Source: Haloarcula taiwanensis (GTDB lineage Archaea > Halobacteriota > Halobacteria > Halobacteriales > Haloarculaceae). Taken from it: a stretch of DNA of 64,000 nt. The notes under the pieces were generated by a model that was not told the DNA's origin, ran no database searches, and saw nothing but the letters and a program-made list of their open reading frames with translations. The number at the start of each line of letters is the position of its first letter. The first letter of the stretch is position 1. Made by a program: the position numbers and the translations under genes. Positions 28,543 to 37,015 of this stretch are shown here, piece after piece. The stretch covers positions 2,604,001-2,668,000 of the forward strand of contig CP019154.1 of assembly GCA_002844335.1 (NCBI GenBank), written 5' to 3'.

Positions 28543-28980
28543 TCAGTAGTACTGTTCGAGTTCGAAGTACGTTTCGACGTCAGCTGCCTTGATCGTCCGG
28601 CGATCAGCGTGACGAGCCAACGTGGCGGCCGCGGCAGCCGTTTCGTCGGCGTACGTTTCGAGGATGGATGCGAGCGCGACGCGAGCGTCCATGGCGACGC
28701 GGTAGTCGTCAGCAATGTCGAGCCGAGCGATGCGGTCGACCGGCGCGACAGGGAGTTCGAGACCGTCCTTCTCCGGAACCTGTTCGATACCGAAGTCGGA
28801 CGGCATCAGCGTCTTTCGACCGTCCGTGGTGGCCTCCGTGGCTGCCGTGACGGCCAACGAGGCGCCGTGCTCCTGTATTCGACGAGCCAGTTCCTCCGCA
28901 GCGTCGGCACTCACCCGGAGCCCGTCCGCGTTCCGCCGAATGACCGCGTCCACCGGTGCGAACGGTAGCTCGACACTCAT
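28543..28980 (-). CDS. Doublet archaeal histone
   Basis: The start at 28980 (MSVELPFAPVDAVIRR) gives 145 residues, two fused histone folds. Fold 1 is ~4-65 (APVDAVIRRNADGLRVSADA ... MPSDF). Fold 2 is ~75-140 (APVDRIARLDIADDYRVAMD ... TIKAADVETYF). Duplicated histones of this kind are typical of Halobacteria. They are acidic, and in Halobacterium and Haloferax the protein is reported to act more like a transcription regulator than as bulk packaging. Nested between the ssDNA-binding-protein gene (55 bp upstream) and the deacetylase gene. Confidence 0.95.
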   Translation of the reverse strand: MSVELPFAPVDAVIRRNADGLRVSADAAEELARRIQEHGASLAVTAATEATTDGRKTLMPSDFGIEQVPEKDGLELPVAPVDRIARLDIADDYRVAMDARVALASILETYADETAAAAATLARHADRRTIKAADVETYFELEQYY

Positions 28981-29035
28981 ACCCAAACCCGGGAGTGTTG
29001 CGGTCTTAAGAGTTTCCGTAGCGTCGCTCGCCGAC

Positions 29036-30499
29036 TCAGAACACGTCCTCAGCGTGGAGGCGGCCATCGCGGAGTTCGCCACGGACGGTTATCTCCTGCC
29101 CTAACTGCACGCGCTCGCCGGTTTCGACGCTCATCGTCTGCTCGCCGTCGTCGAGCACGACCGGGTCGCCGGTCTGGACGACGGTGCCGGTGAACTCCAC
29201 CTGCTGGCCAGCGCTCTGTGCGCCGCCGTCCGGCGACGTGTCGCCGGAGTCGGCGCTGACAGCGGCCGCCTCGTCACTGCTGCTGGCGTCAGCATCGTCC
29301 GCTTCCTCGCCGAAAGTTGACAGACCGGCGTGTTCGGCGTCGGTCGTTTCGACGCTGGCTCCCCCGCCTGCGCCACCCGTCGCCAAGTCCGCACCGTCGT
29401 CGAGCACGACAATCGTCGAGTTCCAGCTCGCCGACGCTTCCTTGTCGTCCTGCCAGCCGTCCTGAATCTCGACATCGGCTGCGAGAACCTCGTCGCCCGG
29501 CGCGATGTCCTTGTCCGCCTTGTCGCCCCACAGCGCCACGCGGATGTCACCTGTCGCATCCTGAATGCGGACGTTCCGGACCTGCCCCTCGCTGCCGTCG
29601 TCGCGGTCGAACGTCCGCTTGGGGTCGGCCGAGCGGACGACGCCAGCGATGTCAACCGTCTCCTCAAGTTCGACCTCCGCTATCGGGTCGGCGTCGGGCT
29701 CGAAGGTCACGTCGTCGTCCACTTCGTCGACGGCCCCCTGGTCGCCGACGTGGAGTTCGAGTGAGCCGTCCCGCTCCCGGACGTAGCCGTCGACGACTTC
29801 GACAGCCGCGCCAGCATCGAGTTCCTCGGCACGGTCAGCGCGATCGTCCCACAGCGTCACTCGGATGCGCCCCGTCTCGTCACCGAGAGTGAGGTTCGAG
29901 ACGCGGCCCTCGCTGCCGTCGTCGCGGTCAAAGGTCCGTATCGTGTCGGTATCGAGCACAAGCCCGCGCAGCGTCACGTCGGACTGCCCCATGGTCAGCG
30001 CGTCGATAGACGAGCCAGCGCCCGGTTCCACGTCGATTGTGGCGTCCTCGTCCGGCTCTGCCTTGTCGACGGACACCTCCAGCCCGTTGTAGCCGTCCTT
30101 CGGCCGACCCTTCACCCGGAGTACGTCGCCGACCTCCAGCTTTCCCTCGTCGATATCGACGGCCTGGCCGTCCCAGAAGGCGAGCCTGACGCTGCCGCTC
30201 TCGTCGGCGGCCTCAACGTTGATGACCCGGCCGTCTTCGTCCTCGTCGTCGCGTTCGAAGGTCTTCAGGTCGCCGATAGCCATCACCTTGGCGAGGAATT
30301 TGACCTCGTCCATTCCGGGTTCGATATCGGCGATGGCGTTGACCTCGTTCTCGTTAAGCTCGTGGGCCAACAGCATCGCGGCCGTCTCCTCGTCGGCGAG
30401 CCCGCCCATCTGCTCGACCTTCTCCTCGACGGCCTCGCGGAACTCCTCCTCGGGGACGTCCGTCTCTAAGTCCTCGTAAATGTCCTCTATCGCACCCAT
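29036..30499 (-). CDS. Multi-OB-fold single-stranded DNA-binding protein (RPA-like)
   Basis: A 487-residue acidic protein with three clear OB folds at ~65-150, ~170-265 and ~280-375. Each carries the same signature: FERDDEDEDGRVINVEAAD, TFDRDDGSEGRVSNLTLGD and TFDRDDGSEGQVRNVRIQD. A Ser/Asp/Ala-rich linker and a short C-terminal OB-like region (VEFTGTVVQTGDPVVLDDG) follow. It is the haloarchaeal RPA (Rpa2-like) that coats ssDNA in replication and repair. Its first three codons, ATGGGTGCG, are the left 9-bp repeat of the adjacent integrative element, so its promoter now lies inside that element. Confidence 0.92.
   Translation of the reverse strand: MGAIEDIYEDLETDVPEEEFREAVEEKVEQMGGLADEETAAMLLAHELNENEVNAIADIEPGMDEVKFLAKVMAIGDLKTFERDDEDEDGRVINVEAADESGSVRLAFWDGQAVDIDEGKLEVGDVLRVKGRPKDGYNGLEVSVDKAEPDEDATIDVEPGAGSSIDALTMGQSDVTLRGLVLDTDTIRTFDRDDGSEGRVSNLTLGDETGRIRVTLWDDRADRAEELDAGAAVEVVDGYVRERDGSLELHVGDQGAVDEVDDDVTFEPDADPIAEVELEETVDIAGVVRSADPKRTFDRDDGSEGQVRNVRIQDATGDIRVALWGDKADKDIAPGDEVLAADVEIQDGWQDDKEASASWNSTIVVLDDGADLATGGAGGGASVETTDAEHAGLSTFGEEADDADASSSDEAAAVSADSGDTSPDGGAQSAGQQVEFTGTVVQTGDPVVLDDGEQTMSVETGERVQLGQEITVRGELRDGRLHAEDVF
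30491..30499. repeat. Left 9-bp direct repeat (attL candidate)
   Basis: CGCACCCAT; on the minus strand it reads ATGGGTGCG, the start codon and next two codons of the ssDNA-binding-protein gene. Confidence 0.5.
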
Positions 30500-30513
30500 T
30501 GTTACATCTCCAT

Positions 30514-30545
30514 GTCGGTCAATTCAAAACACGACCGACTAATAC
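30514..30545 (+). promoter_or_regulatory. Inverted repeat over the recombinase promoter
   Basis: GTCGGTC at 30514-30520 and GACCGAC at 30533-30539 form a perfect 7-bp inverted repeat with a 12-bp spacer. The right arm runs into GACTAATAC, a possible TATA-like region just before the recombinase ATG at 30554. The location suits an operator for autoregulation, or a recombinase arm site. The same interval must contain the leftward promoter of the ssDNA-binding-protein gene. Confidence 0.4.
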
Positions 30546-30553
30546 ACGAACCA

Positions 30554-31861
30554 ATGTCTGACCTACCCGACCGTGATTCTCCCAAGAACCTGTTGCGACA
30601 GGCAAGGGAGAGTCTCAAAACTGCTCGTGATGAGGGACGCATTAGTGAAGATGAGTTTGGCGTCATTGCTGAAATAGTCAACGCATATGATGAGAACAGA
30701 CCATCTACCCCACCTCCTAAAGGAAAATCGCACAACGAAGGAACCACTCTCAAAGCATGGTGTAACCGACTACGGTTGGTGGCAGAACGACTTGAAGTGG
30801 ACTTGACGGAAGCAACAGAAGATGACATCAACCAGTTATGGGACGATATTCTGAGTGGAAACCACCCTGATGTAAAGGACAGTGGATTGTCACCAAACAC
30901 TGTGACCGCAAGGCAGTCTACAGTACGTCGATTCTATGAATTTCACGACGAGTTGGGCGTTGACCCAGAACAACTGTCCGTGATTGCACCTGAAAAGAAC
31001 AACGTCGATGAACGAGATGTCTACACGGGTGAGGAGATTGATGCAATGAGAGAGTGTATCAACCACCCAAGGGACCGTTGTTTATTCGACCTCCTTGTCT
31101 ACACTGGGCAACGACTACGTGCTGTCCAAACACTCCGTGTCAAAGACATTGATTTGGACGATGGGACATTCTATCTGAATAATGATGCTGGTGGACTGAA
31201 AGGGGCTGGTGGGAAACGACCGCTCCTTGGTGCAGAAGCAAGTGTCCGTGAATGGTTGGACTATCACCCAAACCCTGAACCAGACGCATACATCATTACC
31301 CAACGTCCCGACTATCGTGCTGATGCTGATGGAAGTAGCCCGTTGACACAGAAGTCAATACGACGATTACTCGATAGGATTGTAGATGATGCAGGAATCG
31401 ACAAACCGTCAAATCCGCATAATTTCAGACATTCGTTTGTCACTATTGCAAAGCGGAACTATGGTATGGATGATTCAACCATCAAGGGACTCATTGGACA
31501 CAGACTGGAATCCCGAGTCATGGAGGAAGTGTATTCACACCTGAAGGATGATGACCATGTTCGTGCTGCACAGGAAGCAACGGGAATCCGTGAACCTGAT
31601 GAAGAGAGTCCTTTGTCACCCGACTTCTGCCCTACATGTGACGAGCCGCTGCCTGATAGAGCAAAGGCCTGCTCTCGATGTGGGACGATGTTCACACCCG
31701 ACGCCAAGAGTGCGAAGCAACAGATGGACCAAGACCTTCATGAATCGAAGGGTGAAGCAAATGCAACAGACGATGAGCTTGGTCAGCAAGCCATTGAGCA
31801 CCTGAAAGACGAGATTAAACAGAATCCCGAGCTTATGAATGCACTCCTTGATGAGTTGTAA
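30554..31861 (+). CDS. Tyrosine recombinase/integrase with C-terminal zinc ribbon
   Basis: The ATG at 30554 (MSDLPDRDSPKNLL) gives 435 residues. A SAM-like core-binding domain (~60-150) precedes the catalytic domain. Its residues are visible: Arg in VYTGQRLRAVQTLRVKDIDL, HNFRHSFVTIAKR (HxxR), GHRLESRVMEEVYSHL (His and the nucleophile Tyr). After the catalytic core, CPTCDEPLPDRAKACSRCG is a CxxC-x12-CxxC zinc ribbon, a feature seen in haloarchaeal plasmid and provirus integrases. It lies beside the left end of the island and is presumably its integrase. Confidence 0.92.
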   Translation: MSDLPDRDSPKNLLRQARESLKTARDEGRISEDEFGVIAEIVNAYDENRPSTPPPKGKSHNEGTTLKAWCNRLRLVAERLEVDLTEATEDDINQLWDDILSGNHPDVKDSGLSPNTVTARQSTVRRFYEFHDELGVDPEQLSVIAPEKNNVDERDVYTGEEIDAMRECINHPRDRCLFDLLVYTGQRLRAVQTLRVKDIDLDDGTFYLNNDAGGLKGAGGKRPLLGAEASVREWLDYHPNPEPDAYIITQRPDYRADADGSSPLTQKSIRRLLDRIVDDAGIDKPSNPHNFRHSFVTIAKRNYGMDDSTIKGLIGHRLESRVMEEVYSHLKDDDHVRAAQEATGIREPDEESPLSPDFCPTCDEPLPDRAKACSRCGTMFTPDAKSAKQQMDQDLHESKGEANATDDELGQQAIEHLKDEIKQNPELMNALLDEL

Positions 31862-31911
31862 ATAATGACAAACTGATATAAACATACGGGAGTGAGTCTG
31901 CACTCAGAGAT

Positions 31912-32805
31912 ATGACAGACGACGTTACGGAACTCACCGAAGAGAACATTGAACAACTCTTTCCTGAAATTCAACAGTACAGGGAGACAGTAGGCGACGA
32001 AGGTATTGAGCGTATGTTAGATTTGTTGGGCGATTTTTCTGAAGAATTACAGCACAACTGGGAGAGGATTAGTAAAAGGAAGCATAACCCATCACGCAAG
32101 GGTGATGCGTTCGAAAACACATTGAAAGGATTTCTTGAGTCATATTTCACTTCTGCTTTCGACATACGGATAGGCTGCTCAGTTGTTGATTCAGAACTTC
32201 GTTGCTTCAACGAATTTGATTACAGACAGAACGAGTTTGATGTTGTGTCATCGTTTCGGACAGCAGTTCCGAATATAGTCTTCAGTGAAGATAACATGTA
32301 CTGGGTACCGTATGACGGTGTTGCTTTTATTTGTGAAGTGAAATCGAAATTGACGAAGGACAAATTAGAAGGAGACCTTTCAAAGTTGGACATTTTACGG
32401 AAAATTAGAGGGAACCCATCTGATAGATTCCCTGATAATATATCTGGAACGAATATGATGGTGCCACATCAGCTACATTGTTTGATATATGATAAGAATG
32501 AGATTAATCAACAGACACAGAAAGAATTGTTGTATGAATACCCGAATTCTTGGGATTTGCTTCTAATTGTTAATGAAGACAAATTACTAATGAATTCTAC
32601 TTTGCCATACGCCCACAAATTATTCAATAATGAAGGCCAAGAAGGTGAATTCCAGTGGTGCCACATCGACAACGGTCTGTTGTGGTTGATTGTAACCTTA
32701 TCAGTATCAATCCCTCAACCGCCTGTTGTATACACAATAAATCCACTTGTAAAAATGGCCTCATTCATGGGTGCTTCAACGGGTGGTGGACACTACAAAC
32801 ACTAA
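31912..32805 (+). CDS. DUF6602-type protein, PD-(D/E)XK nuclease-like
   Basis: A 297-residue protein, AT-rich in codon use. After a helical N-terminus, RKGDAFENTLKGFLESYF opens the conserved domain. RQNEFDVVSSF supplies the Asp, and DGVAFICEVKSKLTKDKLEG the ExK, giving a credible restriction-nuclease-like core. This pattern matches the DUF6602 family, often found in variable regions. A TATA-like GATATAAACATA at 31874-31885 places transcription at or just before the ATG at 31912. A role in defence or element maintenance is inference from the fold and location. Confidence 0.72.
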   Translation: MTDDVTELTEENIEQLFPEIQQYRETVGDEGIERMLDLLGDFSEELQHNWERISKRKHNPSRKGDAFENTLKGFLESYFTSAFDIRIGCSVVDSELRCFNEFDYRQNEFDVVSSFRTAVPNIVFSEDNMYWVPYDGVAFICEVKSKLTKDKLEGDLSKLDILRKIRGNPSDRFPDNISGTNMMVPHQLHCLIYDKNEINQQTQKELLYEYPNSWDLLLIVNEDKLLMNSTLPYAHKLFNNEGQEGEFQWCHIDNGLLWLIVTLSVSIPQPPVVYTINPLVKMASFMGASTGGGHYKH

Positions 32806-32888
32806 TTTGGGATGCATAAATCCGATATTCAGGTATCTGAGATAAACTGTTAGAACTGTATCCAACGTATCTCAAAGGGGCATCGTCG

Positions 32889-33092
32889 TTAATCCGCAGA
32901 CATCGGTTGGTTAACCGAGTCTGTGGACGACAGCCCACTGTCACGACGTTCAAGGACTATTTTGGCAATCCATGAGCAAGGATAACCTTGGTCAATGATG
33001 TGCCGTAGTTCCTTATCTGTCAGTGTGCCATCGGTCAATGTGTTATGTCCTTTGGTCATAAGGAATCGACCCGTATCGGGTCGTTGTGTCAT
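32889..33092 (-). CDS. Small hypothetical protein of the island
   Basis: A possible 67-residue protein, MTQRPDTGRFLMTKG..., polar with a central helix (DKELRHIIDQGYPCSWIAKI). The start at 33092 has AT-rich TTTAAATATG about 40 bp upstream. Codons 4-9 contain the palindrome CGACCCGTATCGGGTCG (33067-33083). No family recognised. It is supported mainly by an uninterrupted, protein-like composition in an AT-rich region; the rest of 32806-33519 has no other convincing intact gene. Confidence 0.4.
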   Translation of the reverse strand: MTQRPDTGRFLMTKGHNTLTDGTLTDKELRHIIDQGYPCSWIAKIVLERRDSGLSSTDSVNQPMSAD

Positions 33093-33255
33093 ACACTTTG
33101 ACCAACGGCGTTAGAAAAGAAGTATATCACATATTTAAACCCTCTACATCAGGAGAAATTGGTGGGACTAATTAATCCTACAATTTCCACACATTATCGA
33201 GTTAATATTGTATATAGACGATACTCATTAGACGCGTGAGTGGTTTGAATAATTT

Positions 33256-33474
33256 TTGAGTGGTATTTGTTCATCTTCACACTCAAACCGTCTGTGTAGC
33301 CGCTCATGGACTCTGAGAAAAGTGGAATCACAGCAGTACGAAGATAATTTAGTTTTGATTTACTATTATACTAATATCTATATTAATGCATTTAAGTTCA
33401 TTGAGAATAAAGGTGGATTGGGAGCAAAGACTCCCGCCGTGGATGCGGCAAACAGGACGGTTGATGATGATTGA
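33256..33474 (+). pseudogene. Possible transposase C-terminal remnant
   Basis: The open frame ends YYYTNIYINAFKF, then GGLGAKTPAVDAANRTVDDD. The pattern of aromatic residues followed ~12 residues later by 'G.G.KTPA..A' recalls the 'YNF.RPH..L.G.TPA..AG' end of DDE transposases, but the RPH is missing and there is no transposase body upstream. If real, it is a decayed fragment of an insertion sequence. Evidence is weak. Confidence 0.3.
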
Positions 33475-33519
33475 GTCGGTGGTTGAATCCAGATTGTTGC
33501 TCCACGCTTTCGATATACT

Positions 33520-33672
33520 ATGACTGATTACACGACCATTTCTGTCAGCAAAACGACGAAGAAAGAAATTGACCGTGCAGGGCTTGAGTTGCTTGGACTT
33601 GATGCCAGCAAGGTAGCCTACAACGTGATTCTCTCGAAAATGGCGGCTGAAATCAACGAGGGGGACAACTGA
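33520..33672 (+). CDS. Small ribbon-helix-helix-like protein
   Basis: A 50-residue product, MTDYTTISVSKTTKKEI... ending AAEINEGDN. A leading beta strand (TTISVSK), a helix (KKEIDRAGLELLG) and a second helix (SKVAYNVILSKMAAEI) match the Arc/MetJ/VapB ribbon-helix-helix layout in order and length. Its stop overlaps the start of the next gene by one base (TGATG), so the two are translationally coupled. It may be a small repressor of the island or an antitoxin-like partner. The family call is by eye only. Confidence 0.55.
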   Translation: MTDYTTISVSKTTKKEIDRAGLELLGLDASKVAYNVILSKMAAEINEGDN

Positions 33673-34286
33673 TGCCTCATTACAGTGATGCTCAAACGGG
33701 TGGTGAACTGAGAGAGACTACGTCAGGAGATTATCGGGTGAGGGCAGGGACACCGTTGTTTTTCGATACCGCAGATACTTGTGTTCCATTCAAGCCGTCT
33801 GAGCACGACCGTGTTGACGCCGTCGCACTGATGGAACAATCCCATCCATCGTACTCTCGGCATGTTGAGAGCAACATTCAGGAAGATATTGTGTTCACTG
33901 TAGATGATGGTGAGCGTTCCATCAAGCCGCTCCGTGGTGGGTACAACAGTGCTCAGAAGTCGGTTTTTTCCAATGACGTTGATTTTCCCTCTGTTCCTGT
34001 TGCAGGACTGAATGATGGTGACACAATCGAACTACGGAGTGTCACCGAACAGTGTGATGCCTACAACGGGGAATTTCCGCCCCAGTTCTTTTCACGGAAA
34101 ACGTCTGTCTCACTCGTTGAAGACATTTATTCAGTTGATGGTGTTCGTCTTGCTCCCACTGATGATGTAGATGAGAACAAGCCATCTTACGAGCTTGGTA
34201 CGACTGCCCAGTTGGGGGCAACGTTCCGTAACATGTCTTCCAAGAGAGGGTACAGTGAAACGATTTCCGTAACGGTTGACCAATAA
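33672..34286 (+). CDS. Unrecognised island protein, probably frameshifted at its 3' end
   Basis: A 204-residue protein that I do not recognise. It is rich in beta-strand-like segments (DYRVRAGTPLFFDTADT, DIVFTVDDGERSIKPLRGG, GDTIELRSVTEQC), has no membrane helix or signal, and looks like a beta-sandwich or structural protein. The stop at 34284-34286 is followed directly, in the -1 frame, by an open stretch to 34428 encoding DSEFSAKYTEDGWVVDSSSN and ending GRVTIEVIPRN, which reads as a natural continuation of the last beta domain. Either a recent indel or a programmed -1 shift around 34280-34290 is possible. Confidence 0.6.
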   Translation: MPHYSDAQTGGELRETTSGDYRVRAGTPLFFDTADTCVPFKPSEHDRVDAVALMEQSHPSYSRHVESNIQEDIVFTVDDGERSIKPLRGGYNSAQKSVFSNDVDFPSVPVAGLNDGDTIELRSVTEQCDAYNGEFPPQFFSRKTSVSLVEDIYSVDGVRLAPTDDVDENKPSYELGTTAQLGATFRNMSSKRGYSETISVTVDQ

Positions 34287-34697
34287 CTGATTCGGAATTT
34301 AGTGCTAAGTACACCGAAGATGGGTGGGTTGTAGATTCATCTTCAAACGACATTGACGCAGAGGTTTCATACGTTGTTGATGTCAGTGGAAAGGGGCGTG
34401 TAACCATCGAGGTGATTCCACGAAATTAGGCCCCCCTTCGATGTCCACAAAGAGGTAATATACTCATGTCTATTCTAAGCGTTCTCACAGCCGTTGTGTG
34501 AGTATTTGTGATATATCGAGTGTAGTGGGACGTGTTACCCTTCAAACTCCTTCAGTGGACATATATGAGTTATTTGAATTAAGGTTCAACTTCTGTTGAT
34601 TCAACGCCGTGTGTGAATGATTGTCAACTCATTTTGCCTCGCGTGCGCAAAGAATCCGACTGTATTGTTAACAAAGTGTTAGCATAGAGTGGATGTT

Positions 34698-34791
34698 GGG
34701 AAAACCACTCCGCTGTATTTCTAAAACAGACAGCCTCAAACAACGACTGCGGCTGTCTGTTTTAGAAAGTACAGCATCCGTGGTTTTCCCC
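34698..34791. repeat. Long imperfect hairpin (~40-nt arms, 15-nt loop)
   Basis: Left arm 34698-34735 and right arm 34751-34791 are inverted copies. The inner 18 bp (34718-34735 with 34751-34768) are perfect. A one-base bulge (34769) is followed by six more pairs, a short mismatched patch, and then a perfect outer stem GGGAAAACCAC (34698-34708 with 34780-34790). The loop is 34736-34750. It lies in a ~480-bp stretch (34429-34909) with no gene I can support. It could be a structured RNA, a bidirectional terminator between converging transcripts, a replication element or a miniature mobile repeat. Confidence 0.8.
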
Positions 34792-34909
34792 CACTGTGTT
34801 CGGAGAACAGTGTTAGAAAGAAGTGGTAGAAAGTAGTGTTAACAGCAGGTGGGATTGGTTGTTTGAATTACCTTTTCTCATCGGCAGTTAAGATGGTGGA
34901 GTGAAGGAA

Positions 34910-35188
34910 TCAATACTCGGCTGTGAGGGCAACAGACTGTTCCCTATCGGCTTTCGAAAATTGGGAGAAGTATTGAACCAACATCTTCTGCTTAGTGCCC
35001 TCACTGCCGTCTGCTCCATGATGAACGCCGTTACAGTGCGAATAGAGTGAGTGAATGGATGGACCGCTAAAGTTGCATCCATCGACTGGGCAACCGAGTA
35101 CATCAACGGTCTGCTCGAACAGGATGGTGCTATCATCTTGTCCGTCAACAGTAGGTCCACCAGCCAGCGTTTGTTGTGTTGCCGCCAT
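34910..35188 (-). CDS. C2H2-type zinc-finger protein
   Basis: A 92-residue protein starting MAATQQTLAGGPTVDG. Residues ~33-56 hold CPVDGCNFSGPS ... HCNGVHH, a C-x4-C-x12-H-x4-H finger, the spacing used by haloarchaeal viral and plasmid C2H2 proteins. The rest is polar with a C-terminal helix. AT-rich sequence just upstream of 35188 (AATATAATGG) is promoter-like. Probably a DNA-binding regulator of the element; target unknown. Confidence 0.65.
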   Translation of the reverse strand: MAATQQTLAGGPTVDGQDDSTILFEQTVDVLGCPVDGCNFSGPSIHSLYSHCNGVHHGADGSEGTKQKMLVQYFSQFSKADREQSVALTAEY

Positions 35189-36137
35189 TATATTCGTAAG
35201 TTGTACTACTAACTAATAATACTGTCGGAAGATACATTATCCCAAAATCTCATGAAAATTTTAAATCAGAGAATGGGGGTATCGACGTTTCCCATTCATA
35301 GACTTTCGACGGGGTATTCTCACCGTCTGACCCCATGCTTTCAGGTTGACAGGCACCATTGCAGGCACTTACTGCTCTGATGGTTTGGTGTAAATAGAGA
35401 GATTGGGTGGCCCTCCCGTGGTGTGGAAAATACGCCTTTGGAACCTATGATTGAACGGCGTTGCTCACATGCCACTCCGTCAGAATAACAATAATTTTCG
35501 CACACGCCCGTCACACATCGTCTACTGTACAAAGCTCCACGAGAAATAACAATACTGAATAACAGTCTCATTGAGTACCCTACTTTAGTATCCACCATTC
35601 GTGTTCTCACTGCGGCTGTTGTCCCAATTCATCTATACACACAGCATCCCAATGCTGTCAGTGGTTCGTGTCGTGTTGCTACTCGATTCAGTACGACGCA
35701 GCGGTTTAGCGTCGTACTGTGAGACGTAGCGACCGACCGAACCCACCATACTCTCCCGTTGCACCACACTCAGTGTATCCACCCGTGACGCCGTCTTGGA
35801 TACGCATCAGTAGTGCCACGGCCAGCCCGTCGATGGTGGGAGAATAAACGGTCCGTAGTACCATCCGCCCAAACACAAAGGTTTAGACGTGAGTGTAGTA
35901 CTACAATCGACCCGTTTTCTCCAGATTACATATACTCAAATATTGAATTAACTATTCATATCATATTGGGTATGGTTATCGGCGAAGATTCACCGATTCT
36001 TCCACCCCTATATTGGTCGTACCAACGCAGTAGATACACCGTGAACGTTGACACCGTCAATATATCAACATAAAGAAACTTGCCACACATTCATGAGGAG
36101 TCAATATTTTGTGTATCGATGTTCTTTTTCGGTCAAG
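35189..36137. other. Non-coding ~950-bp region with clustered inverted repeats
   Basis: No convincing gene is seen. Several perfect inverted repeats crowd 35640-35840: ACAGCAT/ATGCTGT (35641-35658, 4-nt loop), CAGTACGACGC/GCGTCGTACTG (35689-35719, 9-nt loop), GTATCCA/TGGATAC (35775-35803) and CCCACCAT/ATGGTGGG (35742-35749 with 35833-35840). GGTTTAG recurs at 35703 and near 35880. The centre of this stretch is less AT-rich than its edges. The density suggests a functional DNA or RNA structure, such as a replication origin or a regulatory RNA of the element; no replication gene is adjacent. Confidence 0.5.
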
Positions 36138-36761
36138 ATGTCTAATAGTTCGAATTACATTTCACCGAATAAAGACAAGTCATCATACCATTGTCCTCGA
36201 TGTGGTGTTTATTCGGAACAAAACCACTTTGCACTAAGATGTTCAAACTCGACTAATCGAATTTTGAATGGGACTGCAACGAAATGCACACACTGTAGAG
36301 ATTACCACCTCTGGATAGGTGATGAACTTGCTGTGCCTTTAGCATCAATTGCTCCACCACCTGCTGAGAATATGCCTGATGATGTGAAGGAGGACTATGA
36401 AGAGGCTCGCCAAGTTGTAAACCATTCATCAAAGGCGGCAGCAGCACTACTCAGACGTTCGATAGAATCACTAATTGATGAACTATTAGATGATGCATCA
36501 GGCCACCTATACAGTGATATTGAGACTCTCGCTGATGAAGAAATAATAGACGACCGTATTCGGAAAGCGTTTGATGCTATCCGTGTCAATGGAAACGAAT
36601 ACACTCACGCAGGGCGGATTTATGCGCAAGACAATCAAGAAAAAGCATTGCGTATGTTTGAGCTAATCAATGTCATTGTTCGGACGACAATCTCTGATGA
36701 CCGAATTATACAGGAAATGTATCGAGACCTACCAGAGAACAAAAAGCGGGAAAATAACTGA
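36138..36761 (+). CDS. DUF4145-domain protein with N-terminal zinc ribbon
   Basis: The ATG at 36138 (MSNSSNYISPNKD) gives 207 residues. CPRCGVYSE and CTHCRDYHLW form an N-terminal zinc ribbon. The helical C-terminal domain has VNHSSKAAAALLRRSIESLI, then DRIRKAFDAIRVNGNEYTHA and ALRMFELINVIVRTTI, the classic DUF4145 pattern. These domains are frequent in restriction-modification and other defence loci and in mobile elements, where their role is not well defined. It is the last gene before the right boundary of the island. Confidence 0.85.
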   Translation: MSNSSNYISPNKDKSSYHCPRCGVYSEQNHFALRCSNSTNRILNGTATKCTHCRDYHLWIGDELAVPLASIAPPPAENMPDDVKEDYEEARQVVNHSSKAAAALLRRSIESLIDELLDDASGHLYSDIETLADEEIIDDRIRKAFDAIRVNGNEYTHAGRIYAQDNQEKALRMFELINVIVRTTISDDRIIQEMYRDLPENKKRENN

Positions 36762-36822
36762 TTCAATAGTTGTACTCGAACAGAGGGTGAATAAGAATTG
36801 ATGGACATGCAAAGTACTAAAC

Positions 36823-36831
36823 CGCACCCAT
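36823..36831. repeat. Right 9-bp direct repeat (attR candidate)
   Basis: CGCACCCAT again. It is followed by CTATCTATGGG, so CCCAT-ctatct-ATGGG (36827-36842) forms an inverted repeat with a 6-nt centre, the size of a tyrosine-recombinase core. GC-rich host-like sequence begins directly after it. Confidence 0.5.
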
Positions 36832-37015
36832 CTATCTATGGGACGCTGGGCTGGGGCGCGCTTAAGCGTTGTCGTTGGGCGAGCGAGCGGCCGCTGTCGG
36901 TCGATTTCGGTGGTCGTCCGTCCATTGTTCGATGGTGGTCATGGGATAGGATATAAACCCTTGTCGGCTGACTCGACAGCAGCTGCCACCGCAGTGACAG
37001 CAACACGAGTCGCCG

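Follow-up and report, generated by a model that had tools for sequence, protein, structure and literature searches.

How can a replication gene stay in use when a foreign element stands directly in front of its start codon? This question is raised by a 64-kb stretch of Haloarcula taiwanensis DNA (hereafter the window), part of a 3.72-Mb haloarchaeal chromosome, in which an element of 6,323 bp between its core copies (30500-36822) adjoins the 5' end of a gene encoding a single-stranded DNA-binding protein of the RPA2 type. We consider it very probable that this is a site-specific element residing at codons 1-3 of RPA2, that its integrase end drives RPA2, and that it carries a probable defense cargo.

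The point of insertion is exactly the first codon of the RPA2-type gene, whose coding sequence is intact. From ~30.5 to 36.8 kb the G+C content is 0.40-0.48, down from ~0.66, and it rises again on either side (0.40-0.48 within the element against ~0.65), and the 9-mer CGCACCCAT stands at each switch, so that both the composition change and the repeat noted in a preliminary description of this sequence hold. The left core copy (attL, 30491-30499) is codons 1-3 of the RPA gene on the minus strand, and the right core copy (attR) lies at 36823-36831. These are the only two copies in the window, where 0.53 are expected by chance; since 9 of 100 shuffles of the window contain two or more copies, the 9-mer by itself is weak evidence, and it is the empty sites of relatives, rather than this count, that are decisive. 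Thirty-two Haloarcula genomes, including that of the window and that of Haloarcula pellucida, were compared with positions 30300-36950 as the query. All 32 possess an orthologue of the RPA-like gene, and in 30 of them the element is absent: the query splits into 30300-30499 and 36823-36950 with nothing between, the right flank beginning at 36823, or a few bases further on if the first codons differ, and the two flanks overlap by exactly 9 bases wherever the 9-mer is conserved. Only the window and H. pellucida have sites that are not empty. The comparison with element-free relatives that the preliminary description had put forward thus gives 30 sites closing at CGCACCCAT, its predicted junction CTCTAT-CGCACCCAT-CTATCTATGGG (CTCTATCGCACCCATCTATCTATGGG) is found verbatim in many of them, and its reading of the left 9-mer as the first three RPA codons, with the protein preserved and everything upstream replaced, agrees with these sites. 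An identical core at both ends and a single copy in the empty site are the features of an integrative element of the tyrosine recombinase type.

That a distant Haloarcula member has a related integrase at this site (see below) could be taken to mean that no mobile insertion occurred and that an ancestral region has disappeared from most Haloarcula genomes. Such retention would call for many identical losses. The 30 relatives have one clean junction through the 9-mer, and the composition shift, the integrase and the direct repeats are located at the exact ends; this explanation is accordingly regarded as extremely improbable. The palindrome CCCAT-ctatct-ATGGG, initially suggested as the recombinase core, does not serve as the crossover core: the spacer ctatct is host sequence in the element-free relatives and is missing at the left junction, so it is not common to both junctions, and the crossover is therefore placed within CGCACCCAT.

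The target gene (29036-30499, minus strand) encodes a 487-aa host protein with several OB folds (Pfam) that matches the NCBIfam equivalog NF005551 (single-stranded DNA binding protein) over its full length (1.5e-243), and a histone gene comes directly after it. Its architecture and this neighbor, rather than a tree, indicate that it is likely the orthologue of Haloferax volcanii RPA2, beside which we take a histone gene to lie as well. Of the three RPAs in H. volcanii, RPA2 (HVO_0519) is the sole essential one (PMC7776575); the label "essential-type" given to the target from the sequence is therefore apt, the gene being of the RPA2 type. The native promoter has been displaced. Its block GCGCTTAAGCGTTGTCGTTG (36858-36877) includes CTTAAG at 36861-36866, which in the empty sites is positioned at -30 to -35 relative to the ATG, and this 20-mer (at most 1 mismatch) has a single copy in each of 31 of the 32 genomes, always at the RPA2 locus, and is missing only in H. 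pellucida; the CTTAAG pointed out earlier in host-like DNA before the second 9-mer is therefore part of a conserved block. The same motif stands at 29005-29010, -25 to -30 of the adjoining histone gene (ATG at 28980), which supports a TATA-element role for CTTAAG. In the window the block is unchanged, yet it lies 6.3 kb from its gene: RPA2 is severed from its native promoter and retains its reading frame, as with the islands that supply a promoter at the 5' end of a gene.

The other species with an occupied site is H. pellucida JCM 17820 (G016, L063), in which a 79-80% identical integrase is found at exactly the same RPA2 start codon, showing that one site is reused by related integrases. Here the element consists of the integrase alone, and host-like upstream DNA resumes ~30-50 bp past the int stop codon. 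The locus has neither a right core nor CTTAAG, and GCGCTTAAGCGTTGTCGTTG occurs nowhere in the genome; RPA2 and int are both intact. Because the native promoter is gone, RPA2 must in this species be transcribed from the integrase end, and this loss strengthens the case that RPA2 may be driven by the element in the window as well. In the 13 genomes whose RPA2 is most similar to that of the window (94-96% identity) the site is empty, and the RPA2 of the other occupied genome is at 83%; this favors independent insertion at one site in the two species rather than inheritance from a common ancestor. The insertion in the window looks fresh; with both cores and the displaced promoter intact, excision would restore the native state, and the element may still be mobile.

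It could be supposed instead that the inserted element silences RPA2 and that expression comes only from excised cells. There is a precedent in SpyCIM1, which is reported to block mutL by a 5'-end insertion and to restore it by excision (PMC4689407), and the two intact cores and the unchanged native block at attR in the window would suit such a switch. However, H. pellucida lacks both attR and the native promoter, so no rescue by excision could be expected there, yet its RPA2 and int genes are intact; H. volcanii cannot dispense with the likely orthologue; and A/T boxes are present at promoter distance in the DNA between int and RPA2. We therefore consider silencing by the inserted element unlikely.

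In the preferred reading, in which the integrase end drives RPA2, the replacement core promoter is proposed to be the 54-bp divergent spacer between the start codons of RPA2 and int (30500-30553), which may serve both genes. An A/T box, CAATTCAAAA, is situated mid-spacer at 30522-30531; its hexamers begin at -30 to -25 relative to the RPA2 start and at -30 to -28 relative to that of int. The H. pellucida spacer likewise measures 54 bp, is identical at 44 of 54 positions and keeps the A/T box, as TATTTA at -32 relative to RPA2 and as TAAATA at -28 relative to int; in both occupied sites the box is thus ~25-32 nt from both start codons. An alternative int start at 30512 is disfavored, as it would leave only 12 bp to the RPA2 ATG and the homology of relatives begins near 30554. 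TTWT has been proposed as the haloarchaeal TATA motif, and 72% of the protein-coding transcripts of H. volcanii are leaderless (PMC4983044); because most coding transcripts there are leaderless, the distance of the box suits a transcription start at the ATG. A hexamer at such a distance is found in 34% of random element segments, as compared with 6% of host segments. The abundance of A/T-rich hexamers at -33 to -28 is what would be expected if there were no dedicated promoter and RPA2 transcription arose fortuitously within the A/T-rich DNA of the element, or antisense to int, the arrangement being a tolerated accident. Against such an accident, the box is kept in both occupied species, a box at promoter distance is also present in an independent element at rpoF (described below), and an essential gene requires regular expression; chance initiation is therefore judged improbable.

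The integrase itself (30554-31861, plus strand) has a C-terminal zinc ribbon and matches PF00589 (Phage_integrase, 1.3e-18) and phrog_1 (5e-31), in keeping with the tyrosine recombinase first recognized beside the left end; the motifs TGQRLR, HNFRHS, GHRLES and EVYSHL are all present, as in an intact enzyme. Relatives (E below 1e-45) were sought in 392 genomes of the order, 51 of which hold one, and their target genes were named by eye from the encoded sequences. RPA2 is the site only in the window and in H. pellucida, among the order-wide relatives and in 146 genomes of the family. Others sit in other protein-coding genes, and a tree reveals that the target tracks the integrase lineage across host families. 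Six insertions are in the 5' part of a DUF309 gene, two in a glutathione-transferase-like gene, two in a TYW1-like gene (L101 and L115; G141 and G056), where the far end carries a second 5' part of that gene, divergent in sequence, as a replacement, and two at the 3' end of sdhB (G138 and G035). For the last pair the 5' end of sdhA was rejected as the target, since in the empty sites the core falls within the 3' end of the preceding gene, taken to be sdhB. At one DUF309 locus (L110, ~4.2-6.2 kb, G369) an inverted, 86% identical part-copy of the gene is seen at the other end of the element.

A further start-codon insertion is seen in a genome of another genus (G319), where a 3.9-kb element (L106, 7475-11447) occupies the first codons of rpoF and ten relatives are empty. 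The sequence is GACGCGATGACGATCTTCAAG in the relatives and CCAATGAGCATATTCAAGACGAA in the occupied gene, the native start surviving as a 7-codon stub at the far end. This element brings its own ATG together with TAAAT at -28, and it parts rpoF from the gene whose stop codon is 4 nt upstream in the relatives. A 14-bp repeat, GTACTCCTCGTCGA, was rejected as the att site as a chance match; the true core is at codons 1-7. Start-codon targeting has hence arisen in at least two lineages of this integrase family, other lineages cutting elsewhere in genes.

Taken together, it is proposed that the tyrosine integrase would recombine a site on the element with CGCACCCAT, codons 1-3 of RPA2, leaving the protein whole and shifting the native promoter 6.3 kb off. 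The integrase end would bring in a replacement core promoter, the 54-bp spacer with its single A/T box at leaderless-promoter distance from both ATGs, and the element would thereby drive RPA2; where the native promoter has disappeared, H. pellucida being such a case, the integrase end could no longer be discarded. More tentatively, these loci may reflect a haloarchaeal integrase family for protein genes, some lineages of which aim at essential leaderless start codons (RPA2, rpoF), with one bidirectional TATA-like box in the RPA2 lineage serving int and RPA2, integration seizing control of a replication gene and promoter decay rendering the integrase end indispensable; we hold this wider scheme to be possible rather than probable.

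We read the element as most likely a small island made up of an integrase and its cargo. The proposed defense cargo is a DUF4145 protein of the HEPN superfamily (36048-36761, plus strand; PF13643, 1.6e-16) with a near full-length PADLOC match to the anti-phage protein PD-T7-4 (1.9e-57, residues 36-234 on 3-201 of 211); many members of the HEPN superfamily, to which DUF4145 belongs, are RNases in conflict systems (PMC3710099). A DUF6602 protein resembling a PD-(D/E)xK nuclease (FDVV...CEVKS) follows the integrase (31912-32805, plus strand; PF20247, 5.5e-14) and matches PD_DExK (1e-11) and NucC (3.3e-6) in PADLOC. These two proteins probably defend the cell against viruses. A provirus was rejected: no capsid, portal, terminase or viral replication gene was recognized, the PHROGs matches are confined to the integrase and the DUF4145 family, and the element has no DNA match in phages or plasmids.

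Several points weigh against the proposal as a whole. The A/T-box test is weak by itself, given its frequency in random element segments, and the promoter activity of the spacer and its shared box is deduced from the sequence. The defense role is likewise predicted from motif matches, which are no proof of activity. No replication, transfer or excisionase gene was recognized in the element, which may therefore be a passive or stranded island, and the attP predicted for a circular form was not found in viral contigs.

The remaining open reading frames of the element include one of 50 aa (33520-33672, plus strand) that looks ribbon-helix-helix-like by eye and is weakly suggested to be a regulator, with no family match in Pfam, PADLOC or NCBIfam; an orphan of 204 aa (33672-34286, plus strand), for which viral contigs, plasmids and 391 other genomes of the order yielded no relative and whose AlphaFold model (pLDDT 31.6) is worthless; and a C2H2-type zinc-finger-like one of 92 aa (34910-35188, minus strand) with a weak Pfam match (0.0012). 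About 1.7 kb is non-coding. This part includes a palindrome with a near-perfect stem (34698-34790; fold -57 kcal/mol, z -9.5), a candidate origin, two-way terminator or RNA; an Rfam scan of the non-coding part gave only the neighboring tRNA above threshold and no family for the palindrome. A further non-coding block (35590-35900) is 77% identical over 200 bp (2.4e-29) to a stretch of ~200-300 bp in an otherwise different integrated island of one relative (L096, ~10.3-10.7 kb; G020:C1:298399-298600), which lies beside a tRNA and encodes a tyrosine recombinase and a large possible replication protein; the block may be an origin, a packaging signal or a structured RNA.

If the proposal is correct, an essential replication gene has had its promoter taken over, with single-codon precision, by an archaeal mobile element, and under the wider scheme promoter capture would be a route to the retention of a defense island. 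Since most haloarchaeal mRNAs are leaderless, the start codon is a compact target for a clean exchange of promoter and gene, which would explain survival of the insertion. The locus can also be seen in nature before and after the event: the site is empty in 30 genomes, the window has the full insertion with the native promoter still present at the far end, and one species lacks that promoter. The integrases at rpoF, TYW1, DUF309 and sdhB suggest a protein-gene-targeting family missed by tRNA-based island finders.

The preliminary description was right that start-codon insertion is unusual, but it is not unprecedented, as replacement of promoters at the 5' end is known in bacteria and, for a tRNA gene, in the pTN3-like elements of archaea; for archaeal start-codon insertion, no precedent was found in the literature searched, a coverage outside which most subscription papers fall. 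The SXT/R391 integrative and conjugative elements in prfC and the dusA islands (IMEVchUSA3) are bacterial tyrosine-integrase elements at the 5' end of protein-coding genes that supply a new promoter, and expression of dusA from the island has been measured (PMC8409611). Unlike the present element, they replace N-terminal codons and are large and mobilizable; here the element is archaeal, its junction is the start codon, its target is an RPA replication gene and transfer genes were not recognized. SpyCI in Streptococcus also resides at the 5' end of a DNA-maintenance gene, mutL, and separates it from its promoter, and one variant rescues mutL from an island promoter (PMC3430984); SpyCI, however, is prophage-derived, growth-controlled excision has been shown for it and mutL is not an essential replication gene. 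Among archaea, the pTN3-like elements of Thermococcales cut their target at its 5' half, and the target then uses the integrase promoter (PMC8371274), but that target is a tRNA gene and the suicidal integrase is split on insertion, whereas the present element targets a protein gene and keeps its integrase undivided. The thaumarchaeal elements resemble ours in having short att sites in protein-coding genes that were checked against empty sites, but all 14 of them lie in 3'-distal gene parts, where the host promoter is kept (PMC6563490), whereas the element described here meets its gene at the start codon.

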